From Aquila chrysaetos chrysaetos (lineage: Eukaryota; Chordata; Aves; Accipitriformes; Accipitridae): a stretch of DNA of 64,000 nt. Below the pieces are notes generated by a model. The model was given only the letters and a program-made list of their open reading frames with translations. It did not search any database and had not been told where the DNA came from. How positions within the stretch are numbered: position 1 is the stretch's first letter; the number at the start of each line of letters is the position of its first letter. The stretch lies in the NCBI RefSeq assembly GCF_900496995.4, contig NC_044012.1, forward strand, positions 24,776,759 to 24,840,758. The letters run 5' to 3'. The translations under genes were made by a program, and so were the position numbers. Of the stretch, positions 195 to 63,756 are shown one piece after another.

Positions 195-10413
<10,219 letters not shown>

Positions 10414-18429: not shown

Positions 18430-18963
18430 TCACCAGCTCCCAGCTGCAGCAAGCGGAGGGATCTCCGTGCTGTCCCAGGTCCCTTGCGCCCATCCTGAGG
18501 CTGAGCCGGGCTCTGTGGGAAGCTGCACCGTGGCCAGGCAGGCAGGTGAGATGTCTCCCTGGGGTAACTTTTGGCTGGAGAACATGGTCCCTTTGCACTC
18601 ACCTGGTGGACAGAGTTCCTCTCTACCTCCTCAGTGTGTCCCCCTTGACTGCTACTTTTCCTCGAGAGCTGCTGCAGTGGTGGAGATGGAAAGTAGGCAG
18701 GGGAAATACTTGGGGAAACGTGAAGCTTCCTTAGAAGAGGCTTTCTTGGTGGGGTCAGAGTGGCACTGCAGGTGAGCGTATGGGAGGGGTATGGCTCTGT
18801 GTCATGGTTGCACTGGGGCTGCAGAGCATCACTGTGTGACCAGAGAGAGCTCCTAGTCAAGGAAGAAGGCACTAAGGGAATGGGGGTAGGTTTAGGAATC
18901 AGTGAGGAAGTAAAATGCCCAGGTTGGGGTCTGGCACTGCCTCTCTGGTCCCAGCTGAGCAGG

Positions 18964-21998
<3,035 letters not shown>

Positions 21999-23049: not shown

Positions 23050-23937
23050 TCCTGACTCGTGATTTGTCTGACGAGTTGCAGCTGCCGTGTGCCAGAGGTC
23101 CTGGGTGTCCTGGCAGTGGGGACGCACTGGATTTGTCCCCAGCATCTTCCCTACCCCAAACACGTGTACTGCTGGGGAGCTGAAGATTGGTACCCACCAC
23201 AAGAAGAAGCCTTTTCAGGTACGTTGGGTGCTTTTGTATTTTAGCACTGCTCTGGCAGGACTGAGCTTTGAGGAAGTAAAACTGAAGGAACAGTATTTTT
23301 ATGTTGACTCTGACTCCATCCTGTCTCTGATCTCCTCTAAGCTGTCTCTGGGTAGTTGAATTGTACGTAGTAGCCCATCCTCAGGAGCTGGTGGACATCA
23401 GTTGGGTAAAAATAGGAATTTTTTTTTATTTTGCCTTTCAAGGTGCTGGAAAACACAGGTTTGTCAAAACAGTTGCTTGACCAGGCAATGTGCAAACCTC
23501 CTTCGGGGAGGGTTTCTCAGGCAGGGTGGAACCACGAGATGAGGCGAGTGTCTGTATGTGTCCCTGCGTGTCAGTGTCCGCACAGGCAGGGGTTGGGTCC
23601 AGTGGACTTCTCCCCCCAAGGGAAGTTTGAGTCCTGGACGGGATTTTTCTTCCCATCTCACCGTGGTTGGGGGTACACAGCAGGCAAGCGGGGCAGGCAG
23701 TGCTGCTGCGGGGTGCTTGTGTGGGCAGGCAGGACAGAAGCTGTTGGCATCACCCAGTGTAAAAACCCCATGAAGGGCATGCCAGGGAGTCCAGGTCAGG
23801 GATGTCATCACCATTCTGCCTCCCTTACCAAACCGGATTTGTCACTAAGGGGTCAAGCACGGCTCCGGCTCTGAGCCCTTGGCTCCTGGCGTGTGTGCCA
23901 CCGTGTCACTCCAACTCCTTGGACCCAGCTGAGCGGG

Positions 23938-27604
<3,667 letters not shown>

Positions 27605-29460: not shown

Positions 29461-30119
29461 TACTGGATGGAGCTGGGTGGGTCCCTCCTCAAACTGTCTT
29501 TGTATCTCAGAGGACTCTTTTTGTTCTCTGTGCTAATTAGGATGTCTCTATGCAGTCCCTCACCCTCTAAGAACTCATGTCCTCTGCTCAGATCCCATCT
29601 CACACTCCTCATTTCCTCCCCAAGCTTTTTTTTGTCTTTGTAGTGGCTTTGGGACCCTTTCAGTTCCCTCACAACTCATTCTCTGGCTTTCCCTGTGCCC
29701 CAGAGGACTCTGTGTGCCTTTTATTCTGTCCGGGACCCCCGTTTTGGTCTTTGAGCCCCTCTAGAACTTTTAACCCCAGTCCAAAACAGAGTCAGGACCA
29801 ACACCAACACCCAGCTATGGCTCCCGCACAAGCATGGCTGGGACTGAAAGCTTTTTGCAGCAGTCAACTTTCCTTGGCAAACCCCTTCTCAGCTGCCAAA
29901 CACTGTGGCTCTCCGCTTTCTCTCCCCAAAACCCCTCACCCCAAACCTAACCCTAACCATTCGAAAGGCCACAGCAAAGCCCGGCAAAGATCCCGGGGCT
30001 CTCCGGAGGGCAGCAGGGCCCCTTATGGGCCCCAAAAGAGTACTATATTTTTTAATTAAAGGTGCTGATTGCAGACACCTCTCCTGCAGGTAAACCCCTC
30101 TAGCCCCTCAGCGAAGGCC

Positions 30120-30300
30120 CAGGGCGGGAAGGAGGGGAGGGGCGGGGTCGGGCTCTGCGCATGCGCGGAGTTCCTCGGCAGGCGGCGAAGAACTACGTTT
30201 CCCAGAGGGCCGCGGGAGGGGCCCGTGCCGCAGCGATGACCACTTCCGGTGGCCGTGCCCTTGACTCGGTGTTCCGCTGAGTGTTGCCGGGCAACGGGGG
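30120..30300. promoter_or_regulatory. CpG-rich housekeeping-type promoter upstream of the SSR2 pseudogene
   Basis: Within 150 bp lie a palindromic NRF1 site (TGCGCATGCGC, 30156-30166), a ZNF143/Staf-like site (ACTACGTTTCCCAGAGGGC from 30192), an ETS/GABPA site (ACTTCCGG, 30242-30249) and an RFX X-box-like palindrome (GTTGCCGGGCAAC, 30283-30295). GC boxes lie near 30140. This set is typical of TATA-less promoters of essential genes and can be bidirectional. The nearest + strand gene is SSR2, whose first coding exon is about 1.2 kb downstream. I recognise no gene on the - strand within the 2 kb to the left. Confidence 0.7.
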
Positions 30301-31449
30301 AGCGAGGCGGCGGGCAGGGCAGGCCTGCGGCGGGGTCTTGGGGTGATGTGGGCCATGGGGGTCCATAGGGAGGGGAGTGGGGTCTGTGCGGCGAGGGAGG
30401 GCCCGTGGAAGGGGGGGGACTGGGGGGGTCTGTGGGGCAGGGGAGGGCTGTGATGGGTCTGAGGTGGGGGGGGTCTGGAATAGTGGAGAATTTGGCGGGG
30501 GGAGAGGGGAGCCCTGTGAGGGGTCTGTGGGGGTCAGAGAGGTCCCTGGGGCAGGCGGTCTCTTGGGAGTGGGCCTTTTGGGGATGAGGGGGACCAGGCA
30601 GGATCTGCTGCTGGAGCTCGGGGAGGTCACTGAGCTGGGGGCAGTGCTGGTGTCTGGGTCCTGGGTCTCCTGCAGGCAGCAGTCAGTGAAGCTGGGAGGG
30701 GTTCTCTGGTTTGGAGGGAGCCCGCTGGGCTGCGTGGGTGTGCAGGAACAGCCTGGGGTGGAAATGCTGGCGTGAAGCCTGTGGCAGGGGAATATTGAGG
30801 GGAAGGAAGGGTCCCCTGCCATAGAGAGCGGGGGCTCCAACACTTCAGTGTATATAGGTAGCCTATATAATGAGAGTGGGGTCTCTTTGTCCTCTCTGTG
30901 AGGCAGTTCCAGAGATGCTGGACTCAGGAAAATGGGGACATGGCCTGAAGCAGGGAGTTCTGGGGAGAGAAAGACCACTGGCGAGAGTTGGTAGTACCTT
31001 GGTGGCTGGGAATAAGAGCTAGTGCTTTCTGAGAAGAACAGGGAATTTGATGGGGAGAAGAACCAGGTTCATTTTGTCAGAGGTGGCACAGGTGGCGGTG
31101 GAAAGCTGCCATCCTTCACCATGCCACTTCAGTGATAGGAGAGATACCTGTTGGGGCTTTGAAAAGGGAGACAGCCATCTTCTGTTCTGCCATGCCTGCC
31201 AACCTAAGCCATTGCCATGCTGTTACCTGCACACTTTCCAGCAAGAACGTAAGTATCTGAGGGGCAGCTGCAGAGCTGTGTTGTGCCAGGGCCATTTCTC
31301 CTGCTGGGATATCCCTTACCAATATTGCTGCAAAGTACATAGCTGTTCATTTCTTGCTGCACGTGAAGGCCTGAATTGTCTCATTTAGTTGTCCCACTCA
31401 CATCCTCTTTGCAATAAGGACATCAAATCCATTTTCTTTTTGCTTCTAG

Positions 31450-33322
31450 ATGAGGCTCCTGATTCTTGCTGTTTGCCCTATTCTACATGGCCCACTGTGA
31501 AGAAGGGGCCAGGCTCCTGGCCTCCAAATCACTATTAAACGGATATGCTGTGGAGGACTGGACTCTGCAGTACATCATCTACACTGCTGACTCCAGGTAA
31601 GGCTTGTCTCATACTTACCAGGAGCAAATCTTGATGTGTGTGTGTCTGCAGGGTTTGAGACTGTTTCTAGGCTCCATGGTGTGCTGTTATCTTTGCTCCC
31701 CCTAAGTCTGGGCTTTCCACCAGTGCTTGAAGGTCTGACCCAGCAATTTGGCTGTTCCTTCCTGTTGCATTGTCCCTGCTTTTGCTGTTTCCTGCTTTCA
31801 CCTCATGGCTGCCCTAGCTGTCCGTCCAGCATGGTGCAGTTCCTCGTGTTTCATCTTGTGACGTTGCCCTCCCTGTGCACACAGACGCTCTTTCTTAGCT
31901 TTGTGAGCTTTTCCGACATCCAGTTTGTCTTTTTTGCAGCTTCTCTCAGCTTTGCCTTCCTCTTCCTGCAATCTCCTTGTAATACACCTTGACTCTCCTC
32001 CCCATCTTGGTCCCTTTTCGTGTTTCAAAAATCAGTTCTTCCAGCTGTTAAATCTGTGACACAGTCCCCCAGTAAGTAGAACACTGAAGTTGAGACTTTC
32101 CTCCTATCCCTTTCTTTATTGCGCTTAGTGCTGCCTTAGATATGGAGCTGTCGGATGATTCTTTCCACCCCCCACCCCCCTCCGGCCCAAGGATTTTGGC
32201 ACTGTCTTTGTGATGTTCGATGTCAAGTGGCTCCAGATTGCTCGGTATCTTCTCATGTTTTGAAATTTCTCCCCTCCCAGCGCTCGTTCTTACCCCTAAG
32301 TGTCCTGTCACTCTGCTGTCCTCGTTCATTGTCACTGAGATTCCAGTATGCCAGACCTTGGGTGGGGTGTTGTGGGGAAGGAGGAGTGGCTGGATCCAGC
32401 TTGGATGGGTCTGGATATCTGTAACTACAGAGGCTGGGATCTGTTGACAGGACTGACTTTGCTACCTGGTTCAATTCTCTTCTTTACCCACCTTCTTGCT
32501 TTCCTTTGATGAAATGCAACTATTTTCCTTAAGTTTCAGATCTCGGAGTGAGTAATGTGTCCCACACTGTGGTTCTGCAGCCTCTTGAAGCTGCTTACTT
32601 CACCTCTGCCACCATTGCATACCTGGCACAGGAGGGTGGAGAGGTGATTGTGAGTGATTTGATTTGACTTTTTATGCAGTTATAGCCCACGTTGGACAAC
32701 AGGTATACCTGACTGTGCTCTTTGAGCTTGTTAAGGGATGATGCATGTCCCTGAACTCTTACACTGCACATGCTCTGTTGCAAGAAGGAAAGGTGGCAAA
32801 TACTATCCTTCTCCTTTCCTTTTTTACGTTGGGTTCATGAGTGCTCCTGGGCAGGGAGGGATCCTGGCTCAGCGTGAGTTTGATGGGAGGTTCTCGCCTC
32901 ACTTTATAAGCATCTTTCAATTAATAATTGAAATTACACTGCAGTGATCATGCAAACCAGCACAGTGCCTGTTTGTGGTGTGTTGGGTTTGCACTAGAGT
33001 CACCTGAAAAACTCCAGTGTGGATTGTAGTTAACCTGTGTCTGTTGTCTGGAAGAAAATATCACAGAAATAGTGGTTTCCATTCCAGCTACCTCTGTGAA
33101 GGAGCTGGCACTGTGGGATTTGGTGCCAGAAGCTTTGCGGGTGGAAGATCTGATGGTTATAACTCAACTGTGTGTGATTTGTTCTGAATTGTGTCTAATA
33201 ATTTCTCCTTCTAGCTGGACTGGGCGGCTTTTGGCGTGATGACCCTGCCCTCCATCGGGATGGTGCTGCTGTGATACTTGAGCAAGAGAAAGTATGACAC
33301 CCCTGAGACCAAAAGGAAGTGA
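31450..33322 (+). pseudogene. SSR2: SSR2 (TRAP-beta / signal sequence receptor beta), decayed spliced gene
   Basis: SSR2 encodes a single-pass ER membrane subunit of the translocon-associated protein complex. Exon remnants: 31450-31596 (signal peptide, then [14 protein letters not shown]), 32129-32244 (SAALDMELSDDSF...KDFG...VKW), 32540-32649 (SNVSHTVVL...YLAQEGGE), 32828-32905 ([22 protein letters not shown]), 33215-33322 (LDWAAFGVMTLPSIG, then SKRKYDTPETKRK). Damage: a frame slip in the signal peptide leading to TGA at 31498; loss of two codons after YAVE; a C-rich insertion near 32170 that shifts frame; about seven extra bases before SNVSH; loss of two codons in YFNFTSA; exon 5 flanked by AC instead of AG and by AT instead of GT; and TGA at 33272 replacing the Trp of the membrane helix. 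Introns are kept, so it is not a processed copy. It could still be transcribed. Position beside ARHGEF2 matches human synteny. Confidence 0.88.
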
Positions 33323-33962
33323 GCAAAGCCAAATGCTACCAGCACCCCAGAGCTCAGGAGAGAGCAAACATTAACCCACCCAGAACTGCAGGTGTGTTTG
33401 GATCAGCAACAGTCTGCAAAAGCACTGCCTGGGCTGTGCTTCAGCCCTGTCACTTCAACGGTAGTGGTGTGTTGCCTTCTCCCTTAAAAAAAAAGAAGAA
33501 AAAACACTGAAAAGCCTGCAACCAAACCCCCTCGTCTGCGTATTCAGAGCAGAGTCTCCTCACTGTTGCAGATAAGTGCTGGTGAAGCTGTGACACGAAC
33601 ATGTTAACACCCAGCAGAGCTTATTTGTGGGGGTGCAGCTCTGCAGCATTTCTGGCATCTGTGCTGCCTCCCAGACTCCGTTCAGCCAAGTGGACCTCTG
33701 TCTGCTGCAGTCTTCTCAAACCCTGTAAATCTTGGGGGCCCCCCTCCTCCAGGTGCTGCCCATCTTGCTGAAACACCTGTGGGAAGGAGTTTTACTGAGT
33801 GCTGATAACAGACCTCCTTTTGATAGAGGCTTGTTAGAGCTCTTTCTTTGCTAGGTGGGGTATGGGAAGCCCCGTTGTATTTCAGTGAGCAGTTAATTGC
33901 TGTGTGTCTGGTTGTTTGGGTTTGGTTTTTTTTTCTCCCTGGTTGCTCTGTTGAGGCTTTGT

Positions 33963-33968
33963 AATAAA
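33963..33968 (+). promoter_or_regulatory. Polyadenylation signal of the SSR2 locus
   Basis: AATAAA about 640 bp after the last SSR2 codon, following a T-rich stretch. The 33323-33962 segment is probably former 3' UTR. Confidence 0.45.
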
Positions 33969-36317
33969 ACAAACACCACAAAAGAAGCCTGCTTCTCTTT
34001 TACCAGGAGGTCCTGGAGGCACCTGGCTGCCTCCAGAAGCAGCTAAAGGGCATACAGTCAGGAAAATAAATCCATACATTACTCCATCAGTAAAATAAAT
34101 GGAAGAATGAAAGCATAGGGAACATGTGGGGAGCAGAAATCGCTTTACTGGGTTCATTCATCTGTTCTCCGAAGGGCTGGTACCTCACAGTGGCTTTCCT
34201 GACAGCCCCAAGCACTAGTATAAGGTTTCTTCTCACCACTGTAAATAAATCATAGTGCAGCTGCCTGTTGGGCATGAATTTGTGCTTTTTCTCTGAAGGA
34301 GGTAGTGGCACAGCGATGACTTGGCTCAGGGGACCCACACATGGTGAGAGATGGTTGATTTTTGCTCTGGGATTTGGGCAGGGGCTCTGTGGTGGCTCCT
34401 GGCTCTGGCTGGGCTGGGCTCCTCTGGCACTGTATGTCTGGCCGGACGTTGGACCCCGCTCACCAGCACGGTGGTGGCAGCCGAGAATTTTGTGTTGGTG
34501 GATAGAAATCCTGGGCCATGCCAGAGCGAACACTGTGCCTTTGTTACTAGAACAATGTTTCCAAGCTGGGATTCCTCACCCCCTCGCCCCAACCTTGGCT
34601 GCCACCGGTTGCACCCTTTGTTTTGCCTGGCGAGTGTCACAACCGGCAGGATTAGGGGGACAGTCACTGTTTGATGCTCAAGAAACTCTCTCTGAAGCGT
34701 GCAGGGGCTTTGTGCTAGCAGGTCAGACTCGTGCAGCCCACTTGGATGTGCCCGGCAGCGGAGATTCCTCGCCAGGCTGAGAGGTAAGGCTGTTCCCCCT
34801 GCAAAACGATTCCTGCCTGTTTTGGCAGCAGCCCCGGCTGCGCCCTCAGGATCTGCAGGCAGAAAAGGGTGAAGGTAACTAATGCCTGTTACCAGCAGCG
34901 CTCCGGTTTGGGCTTTTCAGGGTAGGCTGGGGAGGTGTTGATGGGAGACTGGTGTAAAGAGGAGTTGTCTGTGTTGAATCCCTAATAGTAGTGCCCTTCT
35001 TTGAGCCTTGAATTGTGCTAGCATTGGAAATACTGGCCACGGAGTTACATGATGTTGACAGAGCTTCAGAGCTGGAGCTGTGAACAAGCCCCACAGTATT
35101 AGCCAGGATGAGAGCCCTGAGGACACTTGTGCCTGGTCCTCCTGCACCCCGCACCCTGGTGAAGAGGGGCCAGTTCCAGAAAACCCTTGGGAATATTTAC
35201 AGCATTTTGCATTTTGGTGTCTCAGGTGCCTCCTTGCCTGCAGAGCCTCAGGTGCTTGAAAACCAGGAGCTGAAATGGCTGCTGAGCTTCTGGACAGCCC
35301 CCAAACCAGTGCATGAGCTGGGAAAAGGCTTGTTCCCTGATCCCAAGCCCAGGATAGTAATCCAACTAAAATCCTGATGGTTTCAGAAAAAAATTTGGAG
35401 CTTGTTCTGCAGCCTGGCCACTGCAGTTTCTCTCTCTGTGGGGCAGGGCAGGACACAACCGAGCTGTGCCAGATCTGGACCTGGGTGCTCCAGGTAGGCA
35501 TCACCTCCTGGCACCACTCTCCCGAAAGCTGCACAAAGGTCCCCGGTGCCACCTGTTTATTTAAAACAAACATGTTCCTCGCAGGCTAAATCTTTAGCCT
35601 GAGGAATGTCAAGCAGAGAGCCGGTGCCAAGGGGCAGGCTGGCTCCAGGGTGGGGGACCGGGGACACAGCCTAGCCCATGCGCGGTGAGAGGACATTTAT
35701 TTATTTTCCTTATTTTCTGTTGAACGGATGCTTCATGTGACAGTGGCGCCAGGACACCTCCAACAAAGGGTGCCAGAGCTTTTCAAAACCTCCAGGCCAC
35801 TGCTGGCAGATGGGGATTAAACGCACTGGGGTGTTTATCGCTCGCAGGTGCCTCTCGCACAGGAACGGTTTGCTCTGTCTGTGGCTGCTTCATTTCATGG
35901 TGGCTTTTCCCAGGAAATGAAATCCCTCCTGCATCCGGATGTGCTGGGTTTGTCCAAGGTGCGTAATCCTTCCGGCATCTCTTGGTGGCTCGCTGCACCC
36001 GGAGTCCTGTGCGAAGGGTTAACGTGGAGCTGGTGTGGACGGGGTTCAGCCCCATGGCGGTGGGGAGCGGACGGGGTTCAGCCCCACGACAGCCAGTGCT
36101 GTGTGGGCAGCGTGACGCTGCAGTGAGCCTGAGTCACCTCCGCTTGCCCTGCCCTTATCGCAGCTTGTGGGCGCCCTGCTCTGCCCCCTGACCAGCTCTC
36201 TGCACCCGTATCAGTTGCTTAGATCTTAGCCCTGAGCCGGCAGCAAGTTGCGTGGGGTTAGAAAAGTGCGACTGCACTGTGCCAAAGCTACCTGGGGGAA
36301 AGAAATCCCCACCTTTG

Positions 36318-50200: not shown

Positions 50201-53200
50201 CCCCCCCTGCCCCAGCCATGGGGTGCAGCTTGACACCCCCAAACCCACTGTCAGATCCAGGTGTCTGGGCTGGGTGGGGGTCACCATCCCCCCCCGGTCA
50301 CCCCTTGCCATGCCAGGCCATGTCCTCGGTGTCCCACTGGCAGCAGGGACCCTATGTGGCCCCCCCTGCTGGGCACAGGGGGGGCCTTTGTCCCCCACCA
50401 GGCTGGATTTGGGACTGCCATCGGAGGGTCCCAGTCTGCAATGCCCCCCACTCCTATCCCCGGTGGGCAGCTGGACCCCTGAGGGGCTCCAAGCCCCCAA
50501 AGCCCCCCCTCCAACCCCCATGCACCCTCCCTTCCCTATACGGGCAAGGGGCTGCATGTGCCCCCCCCAAATACTTCCAGGGCATCCAGGGGCGATGCTG
50601 AAGCCTTGTGTGGTTTTATGGCACCGTCACCGGTTGTACTCGTCGTTCCCCCCCAGCGTGGCCTTTGTGGGGTGGGGGGGACCCAGGCGTGCTGCAGGGT
50701 GGGGGTCCGGGTGGGGGGAGACCCAGGCGTGCTGCAGGGTGGGGGTATGGGTGGGGTCGAGTTGGGGGTACTTAGGCAGGGTGGGGGTCCGGGGCGGGTG
50801 GGACCCGGTGTGGGGGAGCAAATCCAGGCGGGCTGCTGGTGGGGGGGGGCCGCGGCTGCAGGAAGAGGAATCGCCTCCCGCCTTTGTCTGGCGGCGGTTC
50901 GGTTTCCTGCGGCCGGGGCCGGAGGAACGGCGGGGCCGGGGTCCCTCCGGGGCGGAGGCGGGGAGGCAAAACCAAGACAGAAGGAAGAAAAAAGCAAAAT
51001 TAGAAAAAGGAAAGAGAAAAATAAAGAAAGCGGAGGAAAAGGGAAAGAAAGCAGGAAAAAAGGAAAGAAAAGGGGAGGAAAGGGAAAGAAAAGCGGAGGA
51101 AACAAAAGCAAAAAAAAAGGGGGGGGAAGGCAAAAACAAAAAAGAAAGAAGAGGAAAGCAGGGAAAAAAGGTCGAAAAAAAGGAAAGCAAAGAAAAAAAA
51201 GAAAAAAAAGAAAAAGGGAAAGAAAAAAGACAAAAAGAGGAAAGGAAAAAAAGGAAAGAAAAAAGGAATGAAAAAAAGAAAAAAAGGAAAAAAGAAAGGG
51301 AAGCAAAAAAAAAGGCCAAAAAAGTTAAAAAAAAACCCAACAAAACAAACCAGAAAAAAATAGAAAAAAGCAGAAGGGGGGGCGAAACGCGGCAAAGCAA
51401 AGAAAAAAGCAAAGCAAAAAAAAAAGGCCCGGGAACAATCACGGCGCGGAGCAGGGCAGATGTTGTGGCTGGAGGCTCGGCAGGCACTGCTCCCTCCCAG
51501 CCGGGCTAGGGGCTGAGGCCGGGGGGGCCGGGGGGCCAGGATGTGCTGCTGCTCCTGCGCCCCGTTCCCGGCGGATGGGGAGGTGGAGAGACCCCTCTGC
51601 GGAAAGCGGGTGAGCGCCCAATATCCCCCTCTGGCTCCAGATTGAACCCTGTTGTGTCCCCCCCAGTGCAGAGCAGGGACAGTGGCTGTGTGTCCCCCAC
51701 CAGGGTCTCCTCTCCCTGGGGACCATGGGGTGGTGGGATGCTCTGCTTAGCCCCACTGGTGTCCCATTGGCTCCCATGGTCTTCCTCACTTTCTTCCCCA
51801 CCTGCCTGGCTCCTCCTGGGGAGGCCCTCGGCCTCTCACCCACCTTCCTGGGGGGGTTCGGGAGCTGGGACGGAAACCAGGACCCCCTTTGGCATCACTG
51901 AGCTGTGGGAAGGGGGATTGGGGACCCAAAGCGCCATCATTTTGGGGGGGCTGGCGTGGAGAGGGTCTGTTTGGCGCGTGCCCCGGTGCCAGGCACGGCT
52001 GGGTGCCATGGCCGGGGGGGGGGGACAGGACAAAGGCTGCTGTGTGCCGGTCAGGGCACGGGGCGGGGGGGGGGGGGGAGTGTCCGAGGCAGGAGCGGCC
52101 ACCCTTGAGATGCTCGGGATAACGCCGGCTCGCTCCTCTTTTCTGGGAGGGGAAAACCATGGCGAGCCACCAGCAGCACTGGGGACCCCAAAACCATCCC
52201 CATGGGGGGCAGCTGGCCTCCAAACCCCTGTTTTGGGGGAAACAGGGTGAAAATATCCACTTTGGATAAAAAAAGGAGGTGGGAAGGTGCAGAGCTGCTG
52301 GCTGCGATGCTCTGGTGATGCCCCCAGCCCCCATGGGTGCTGGGGAGCATCGTCACCTCCCCCCCACTGCAGCCCCCGCATCTTGTCCCCATTGGGGCTG
52401 GCGGCTGCGGTGCTGGGGGGGGGACATGTGCTGGGGCGGGGGGGATTTCTCCCGCAGCCACCCGGTTGTCATGGTTATGGGATGATGGGAAGCACGGGCG
52501 AGCGGAGCGATCGGGGTGGCTTCTCCCCAGCCGCTCGGCTCCCCATCCTCCCCACCCCAGGGTGGCAGGACCCCCCGAGCATCGCCAGGGACCGGGTGGT
52601 CCCATGTCACCCCCGGCTTCCCACAACCATGAGCCGCATCCCGAAGCAAGCAGGAGCCGTGCCGGGTGGTGCTGCTGGGCGCCCACCGTGCCACAGCCCC
52701 ATCAGGCGCCCGTCGCATCTCTCTGGGCAGAGCAAGGAGAAGGAGAAGATGAAGGAGGGTAAGGAGAAGGACGCCCGCTACACCAACGGCCACCTCTTCA
52801 CCACCATCACTGTCTCCGGCATGACCATGTGCTTCGCCTGCAACAAGAGCATCACGGCCAAGGAGGCTCTTATCTGCCCCAGTGAGTAGCCAAAATGGGT
52901 GCAGCGGCTTTGCCGGGGTGGCTTTGCCAGGGCGGCTTTGCCGGGTGGGCATGGCAATCCCATTGCAAAAGGCTGGTTGCTCCCGGTTTGGCTTGCGCGG
53001 ATTCGTGCCGTGGAGCAGGAGGGATGCTCACGGAGATGATTTCTCCGAGGCATCCTGGCAAATGCCGGCGTGCCACCCTGGCACGTCCCAGCAAGGCAGC
53101 CGACACTGCCAGCTTCTTCCAGCTCCCCCGGTGCAGGCGATGCTGCAGTGCTGGATGGAGCCAGTGTGCCTTTGGCACCGGGCTGGTGCAGAGTGTTGTG

Positions 53201-61689: not shown

Positions 61690-63756
61690 ATGAAGCGGAT
61701 GTTCTCCTGCTCCAGCTCGCAGGTGGCGGTGAGTCCTGGCCTCCCCCCATGGCGGGGGGGGACCCCAGCCTGTCCCAGGGTTGGGGACACCCTTCCCACC
61801 CCTGTGGATGGGGGTAACACCCAGCCTTGGTGCCCTGCAAGCACCCACGGGTGCTGCCATGGTGCCCGGGTGGGTCTGGGTGGGGGCTGCAGCCACATTT
61901 GGGGTGAGGGGATGCTGCAGGCCCCCCTGCTGCCAGCCAGCCCCGCGTGCCCGGTCCCAAACCCCATCCAGCCATGGTGCTCAGTGCCAGTCCTGCTCCG
62001 ATGCCAGCTGCAATCCCAACCCCAGTCCCAACCTTGATGCCGGCTGCAATCCCGACCCTGATGCCGGCTGCAAACCTGACCCCAATCCCAACCCCAGTCT
62101 CGTCTCCGATGCCGTCCCAGATGCCGTCTGCAATCCTGACCACGATGCCGGCTGCAGTCCTGTCCCCAATCCCAACCCCGATTCCGGCTGCAATCCCAAC
62201 CCCAATCCCGACCCCAATCCCGACCCCGATGCTGGCTGCAATCCCAACCCCAGTCTCGGCTCTGACGCTGTCCCAGATGCTGGCTGCAATCCCGACCCCA
62301 ATCCCAACCCCGATGCCGGCTGCAATCCCAACCCCAATCCCGACCCCAATCCCGACCCCGATGCTGGCTGCAATCCCAACCCCAGTCTCGGCTCTGACGC
62401 TGTCCCAGATGCTGGCTGCAATCCCGACCCCAATCCCAACCCCGATGCCGGCTGCAATCCCAACCCCAATCCCAACCCCAATCCCGACCCCGATGCTGGC
62501 TGCAATCCCAACCCCAGTCTCGGCTCTGACGCTGTCCCAGATGCTGGCTGCAATCCCGACCCCAATCCCAACCCCGATGCCGGCTGCAATCCCAACCCCA
62601 GTCTCGGCTCTGACGCTGTCCCAGATGCTGGCTGCAATCCCGACCCCAATCCCAACCCCGATGCCGGCTGCAATCCCAACCCCAATCCCGACCCCAATCC
62701 CGACCCCGATGCTGGCTGCAATCCCAACCCCAGTCTCGGCTCTGACGCTGTCCCAGATGCTGGCTGCAATCCCGACCCCAATCCCAACCCCGATGCTGGC
62801 TGCAATCCCAACCCCAATCCCGACCCCAATGCTGGCTGCAATCCCAACCCCAATCCCAACCCCAGTCTCGGCTCCGATGGCGGCTGCAATCCCAGCCCTG
62901 ATGCCCTGACGCTCAGCTGCGATCCTGGTCCCAGTGCTTACCCCCAGACCTGGCCCTGCTGCGGGTCCCGACACCCAGCCCGGGCCCTGGTCCTGGTCCC
63001 AGTGCTTGGTTCCAGTGCTTGGTCCCGGTGCCCACCCACGCCCCGCACCGTGGTGGAGCCCGGCACGGCGGCAGCCCGACAAACCAGCCAGGCAGGCACA
63101 GGCAGGTACACGCTCACCTGCCTTGCCTCACCTTCCCCAGCTGGTGACCAGGGTCGGGCTCTGTGAGGATTTGGGGTCCCCAGCGCCCCATCCCTGATGG
63201 AGCACTCCAACAAGTGGGGAAACTGAGGCACGGCTCCGCACCGTTGCAGGGGGAGGCACTTGGTGCAGGGGCACATCCCAAAAGAGGGGTCAGCCCCAAA
63301 GCGCAGCCTCTGCCGTGGCCCTTCTGCCTGGAGAACCTGTGCCTCAGTTTCCCCTTGCCGCTCGGTGGGTCAGGGCGGGGGGTCCCATCCCTGCAGCCTC
63401 CCCCCAGAGCTGCTTGCCCCCCCCCCCCGCGCCCCAGGTTGAGAGCTGGAACAAGCAGGACCAGAAGCTTTTGGAAGCGGTGGAGAAGGGCGACGTGGGC
63501 AGGGTGTCCGCCCTCGCCTCCCGCAAAACAGCCCGGCCCGCCAAGCTCAACGCCGTGGGGCAATCTGCGTATGTCAACCCCGGGTGGGGGGGGACACATG
63601 GGCATCCCCGGGGTGGTGGGGTGGCGGATGGGGACCTCAGTGGCAGCCACCTCTCGCCCTCGTCCAGCTTCCACCTGGCTGCATCCAAGGGTCTCACCGA
63701 GTGCCTGACGCTGCTGCTGGCCCACGGGGCCCCCATTAACGAGAAAAATGATGACG
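61690..63756 (+). CDS. ANKRD35: ANKRD35, first three coding exons (gene continues past the window)
   Basis: Ankyrin-repeat plus coiled-coil protein of the RAI14/UACA/ANKRD35 group; cellular role poorly known. Exons: 61690-61728 ([13 protein letters not shown]), 63438-63568 ([19 protein letters not shown], then [20 protein letters not shown]) and 63668-63756 ([20 protein letters not shown], then PINEKNDD), all GT/AG and in phase. This matches remembered mammalian ANKRD35 closely from the first residue (MKRIFSCSSTQVAVERWN...). The third exon carries the first ankyrin repeat. The start is fixed by this match and the Kozak context. The open donor at 63757 shows that the rest lies to the right of the window. 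Intron 1 carries a large minisatellite. In human, ANKRD35 lies several Mb from ARHGEF2. Confidence 0.93.
61980..62890. repeat. Minisatellite with 132-bp higher-order unit in ANKRD35 intron 1
   Basis: Built from 6/12-bp words (AATCCCAACCCC, GATGCTGGCTGC). The phrase TCTGACGCTGTCCCAGATGC recurs at 62261, 62393, 62525, 62609 and 62741: spacings 132, 132, 84 and 132 bp. The 84-bp unit lacks 48 bp of the 132-bp unit. All lengths are multiples of 12, so several frames on both strands stay open (for example [10 protein letters not shown] and IPTPIPTP peptides). Flanking splice sites and the ANKRD35 frame show it is intronic. Confidence 0.93.
63217..63237 (-). repeat. MIR/CORE-SINE-like fragment in ANKRD35 intron 1
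   Basis: GTGGGGAAACTGAGGCACGG, reverse complement of the MIR core phrase. A second fragment in the opposite orientation (CTGTGCCTCAGTTTCCCC) lies near 63339. Confidence 0.4.

Follow-up and report, generated by a model that had tools for sequence, protein, structure and literature searches.

The SSR2 (TRAP-beta) sequence in the window (the whole 64,000-nucleotide stretch analysed here, C9:24776759-24840758) is almost certainly a duplicated, unprocessed pseudogene. Its intact counterpart is found 2.02 Mb further right along the same contig, in the same orientation. Five SSR2 exons are present at 31450-33322 on the plus strand, with introns retained and with damage in every exon. These and the associated features are as follows, with exon lesions given relative to the intact copy:

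30110..30340, plus strand: CpG island, putative relic SSR2 promoter and non-coding exon 1; up to 25 CpG per 200 bp
31450..31596, plus strand: SSR2 pseudogene exon 2; deletions of 2 bases and of 6 bases, TGA at codon 17
32129..32244, plus strand: exon 3; 17-base insertion inside a C-rich run
32547..32649, plus strand: exon 4; acceptor AG replaced by GG (32545-32546), 6-base deletion
32828..32905, plus strand: exon 5; frame open, acceptor AC, donor AT
33215..33322, plus strand: exon 6; 3-base deletion, TGG changed to TGA at 33272-33274, normal stop retained
33323..34633, plus strand: 3' flank of the duplicated segment; matches run up to 34371 (L005:9360) and resume at 34504-34633 (L010:603-732)

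Identification of the damaged SSR2 copy

Human SSR2 was compared with the window by tblastn and gave matches to exons 2-6 in the correct order and all on the plus strand: 31463-31594 (54.3 bits), 32118-32171 with 32186-32242 (exon 3 in two pieces, 28.9 with 26.6 bits), 32551-32652 (52.8 bits), 32828-32908 (50.8 bits) and 33215-33319 (56.6 bits). Shuffling the window 20 times in two-base blocks gave no score above 25.4 bits, and there was no further SSR2-like match in the window among the tblastn matches listed. When the window pieces were joined, with X at the breaks, they matched all three distinct TRAP-beta sequences found in PDB (E values 3.3e-73 to 3e-72), and the similarity extends over the whole protein (query 1-160 of 161 at E 3.3e-73). 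Exons 2, 4, 5 and 6 were submitted to Pfam, which assigned all four to TRAP_beta, and its curated cut-off was passed only by exon 6 with the TGA read as W. The window copy thus resembles SSR2/TRAP-beta (Pfam PF05753; PDB 8bf9, 8b5l, 8b6l) in that all coding exons are recognisable, but it differs in having no usable frame and in the loss of three splice-site dinucleotides. These results bear out the initial annotation, which had described a decayed SSR2 with five ordered exon remnants. No SSR2 relatives were confirmed in genome_contigs or viral_contigs.

An intact SSR2 gene on the same contig

The genome searched comprises 1,233,704,830 bases in 144 contigs, and it contains an intact SSR2 gene at C9:26827306-26829342 on the plus strand (exon 2 starts at 26827306, compared with 24808208 for the window copy). 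This gene has 183 codons and no stop, with exons 2-6 of 155, 99, 109, 78 and 111 bases and AG/GT at four of four introns, it is identical to human SSR2 at 169 of 183 residues, and it is presumably expressed. A TRAP_beta family search of the genome gave four matches, all over the cut-off and all within C9:26827321-26829327, and the stops inside them fall where the matches extend into introns; at a limit of E 0.001 this search missed the window copy. A search with the intact protein, taken to E <= 0.1, listed nine matches, of which five belong to the intact locus and four to the window copy, and no further SSR2 locus elsewhere in the genome among the ten best candidates scored; as the search scores the best candidates only, a weak third copy could escape it. 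The presence of an intact paralogue in the same genome is as expected of a duplicated pseudogene and not of a unitary one.

The initial annotation had offered two explanations, that a working SSR2 copy sits elsewhere or that the species changed its TRAP complex, and had proposed a genome-wide protein search. The genome searches bear out the first, as a second, intact gene is present, and there is no call for a changed TRAP complex. The related reading that TRAP-beta was lost in this species and that the window copy is its only SSR2 could draw on the dead state of that copy and on its position beside ARHGEF2, but given the intact gene 2.02 Mb away it is virtually inconceivable, and we reject TRAP-beta loss at the gene level.

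Lesions and decay of the window copy

Alignment of the two copies reveals nine lesions in the window copy: along with a stop and a single insertion, it has four deletions and has lost the dinucleotides at three splice sites. The deletions of 6 bases in exon 2, 6 in exon 4 and 3 in exon 6 keep the frame; the other six lesions are disabling. An open frame of about 183 codons is not present, as the unmended spliced reading of the window ends at codon 17, and where AG, AG and GT would be expected, the exon 4 acceptor reads GG and the exon 5 acceptor and donor read AC and AT. The frame slips, codon losses, AC/AT around exon 5 and membrane-helix TGA previously noted are all found in the alignment, and loss of the exon 4 acceptor is additional; a frame break considered at the start of exon 4 was rejected, the alignment showing a lost acceptor instead.

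Could these lesions reflect errors of assembly or base calling over a second intact gene? Runs rich in C or G do occur close to the locus, but the nine lesions and the 36 differences in 173 codons, the divergence of about 20% spread over the introns, and the clean sequence of the tested neighbours make such an artefact extremely unlikely. The tested ARNT and ARHGEF2 exons have no internal break: one ARNT exon is equal at 72 of 76 positions, with three of the four differences in the last three residues, beyond the likely donor; one ARHGEF2 exon gives 86 columns without gap or stop against PDB; and 11 ARHGEF2 match rows contain three stops, each of which faces a gap in the query and so falls in an intron. 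The earlier argument that poor sequence is not the cause therefore holds, and its statement that neighbouring genes are clean across dozens of exons stands for one exon of each gene and these 11 match rows.

Between the copies, 173 of 183 codons are gap-free, with 36 amino-acid differences (counting the stop). At these 36 positions the human residue is shared with the intact copy in 32 cases and with the window copy in one, and differs from both in three, which places the amino-acid decay on the window branch, as expected of a duplicated pseudogene. The mean BLOSUM62 score of the changes is -0.31, compared with -0.49 (sd 0.28) for random change, a weak test whose outcome is in keeping with drift of the window copy. 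A dN/dS comparison had also been suggested; as the preceding counts show, the changes do fall on the window branch, but the pairwise ratio of 0.32 (dN 0.104, dS 0.322) is below the value of about 0.5 expected if one branch was unconstrained since the duplication. One explanation is a period of constraint on the window copy, which may then have remained functional for some while after the duplication; the other is an inflated dS. Judged by intron distance the shortfall appears weaker, about 0.09 on the window branch compared with 0.12 per branch.

Extent and age of the duplication

DNA similarity between the window and the intact locus spans window positions 30557-34371 (L005) and 34504-34633 (L010), covering promoter-side sequence, introns and 3' flank. 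Together with a CpG island that matches in place, this indicates that the gene, its introns and its flanks were copied; ARHGEF2 has no match near the intact copy (L005-L013, E 1e-3) and therefore was not. Four introns can be aligned with those of the intact copy, confirming the earlier view that introns are kept, and for this reason a retrocopy was rejected. The copies differ at 242 of 1196 aligned sites in introns 2-5 (distance 0.236), 72 of 534 in exons, 274 of 937 in intron 1 and 231 of 964 in the 3' flank. Bird substitution rates are about 2e-9 per site and year, and at this rate the intron distance would put the duplication, very roughly, at 60 million years ago.

A segment of about 4.5 kb with the whole SSR2 gene, promoter and 3' flank is present twice in the genome. 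The copy 2.02 Mb away kept its frame, and we propose that the window copy, then redundant, drifted. Drift would have cost it the signal-peptide frame, the frame of one exon, three splice sites and the membrane-helix tryptophan codon. Such a history matches that of duplicated (unprocessed) vertebrate pseudogenes in that introns are kept, an intact paralogue is present in the genome and all coding exons carry lesions; we see no essential difference, the SSR2 copies now being 2.02 Mb apart.

Gene neighbourhoods of the two copies

Gene order in the window, with approximate extents, is ARNT, cathepsin K-like, two cathepsin S-like genes, the SSR2 pseudogene, ARHGEF2 and ANKRD35-like. At the intact copy, CCT3 lies about 10 kb to the left on the opposite strand (L009:5851-6708), and a UBQLN4-like gene lies 185 kb to the left (C9:26642049-26642213, the top one among four genomic ubiquilin matches, with UBQLN4 as the reference); UBQLN, LAMTOR2 and RAB25 pieces gave no match in L005-L013 at E <= 1e-3. 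In human 1q22, UBQLN4, SSR2, ARHGEF2 and CCT3 are all neighbours, with SSR2 and ARHGEF2 in the order and orientation seen at the window copy. Each SSR2 copy thus keeps part of the old neighbourhood, and the simplest account is that the gene was duplicated and that a later rearrangement parted the two copies.

The initial annotation regarded the window site as the apparent ancestral locus. In favour of this, ARHGEF2 adjoins it, as in human, but the left flank is ARNT-CTSK-CTSS-CTSS and the intact copy is the one nearer CCT3 and the UBQLN4-like gene. The same evidence bears on a variant of the duplicated-pseudogene reading, strict relocation, in which the ARHGEF2 site is original and a daughter near CCT3 took over the function: the SSR2-ARHGEF2 arrangement speaks for it, while the left flank of the window copy and the nearness of the intact copy to two other genes of the human neighbourhood speak against it, and we give this variant about an even chance. 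The likeliest course would be duplication and then rearrangement, after which ARHGEF2 remained beside one copy while CCT3 and UBQLN4 were near the other, although the order of duplication, decay and rearrangement is our reconstruction.

Several other features of these regions were observed. The tandem cathepsin S-like copies, of which the second was compared with PDB, share 516 bp at 99.2% identity (18946-19461 and 23920-24435) and 476 bp at 93.1% (19667-20139 and 24977-25452), which could reflect either recent duplication or gene conversion. A long G+C-rich minisatellite with periods of 24 to 216 occupies 61955-62898, between two ANKRD35-like exon matches, and is probably intronic, and an A-rich purine tract lies at 51020-51430 within an otherwise G+C-rich region. 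AATAAA occurs 48 times over both strands of the window, compared with 10.9 expected from whole-window shuffles, part of which uneven base composition may explain. To the right of the intact SSR2, L010:4729-5499 contains a LINE-like reverse transcriptase frame (Pfam RVT_1), and the sequence there looks rich in mobile elements; a CR1 tail sought in the window gave no match.

A CpG island upstream of the dead copy

The island at 30110-30340 ties for the highest CpG count in the window, and it is the sole stretch before 44.8 kb with at least 18 CpG in 200 bp. The intact copy has a CpG island in the corresponding position (L005, approximately 4901-5300), and in both islands the order of related sites is NRF1-like GCGCAKGCGC, ZNF143-like ACTACRTTTCCCAG and ETS-like TTCCGG. 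Observed/expected ratios reach 0.94 at the dead copy and 0.87 at the intact copy. Minus-strand frames, some of them long as judged by eye, run across the island.

The CpG richness kept at the window island could reflect remaining promoter activity. If so, the dead copy might still be transcribed from its old promoter into an RNA with a role, a suggestion that the retained island and shared sites would favour, but the alignment of the islands is poor (80 of 203 columns differ) and a scan of the window gave no Rfam match at gathering scores, so that we consider it very unlikely. A tRNA scan of the window was likewise negative. A combined scenario, in which SSR2 function moved from the ARHGEF2 side to the daughter and the working SSR2 is influenced by a pseudogene RNA still made from the old promoter, is highly improbable.

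Implications

No report of an SSR2 pseudogene or of SSR2 loss was apparent from the titles of the literature matches listed. In the passages of PMC12876923 that mention it, SSR2 appears only as one of the housekeeping genes excluded because of a link to cancer, and SSR2, ARHGEF2 and UBQLN4 gave no hit in the main text of PMC4290089.

The SSR2 sequence in the window was correctly observed and is an ordinary duplicated pseudogene, and with this falls the suspicion that TRAP-beta is missing from this animal. It also gives cause for caution, as gene order alone can steer annotation to the dead SSR2 copy. The SSR2 pair provides an example of whole-gene duplication, dated by divergence, in which the copy beside ARHGEF2 is the one that died.
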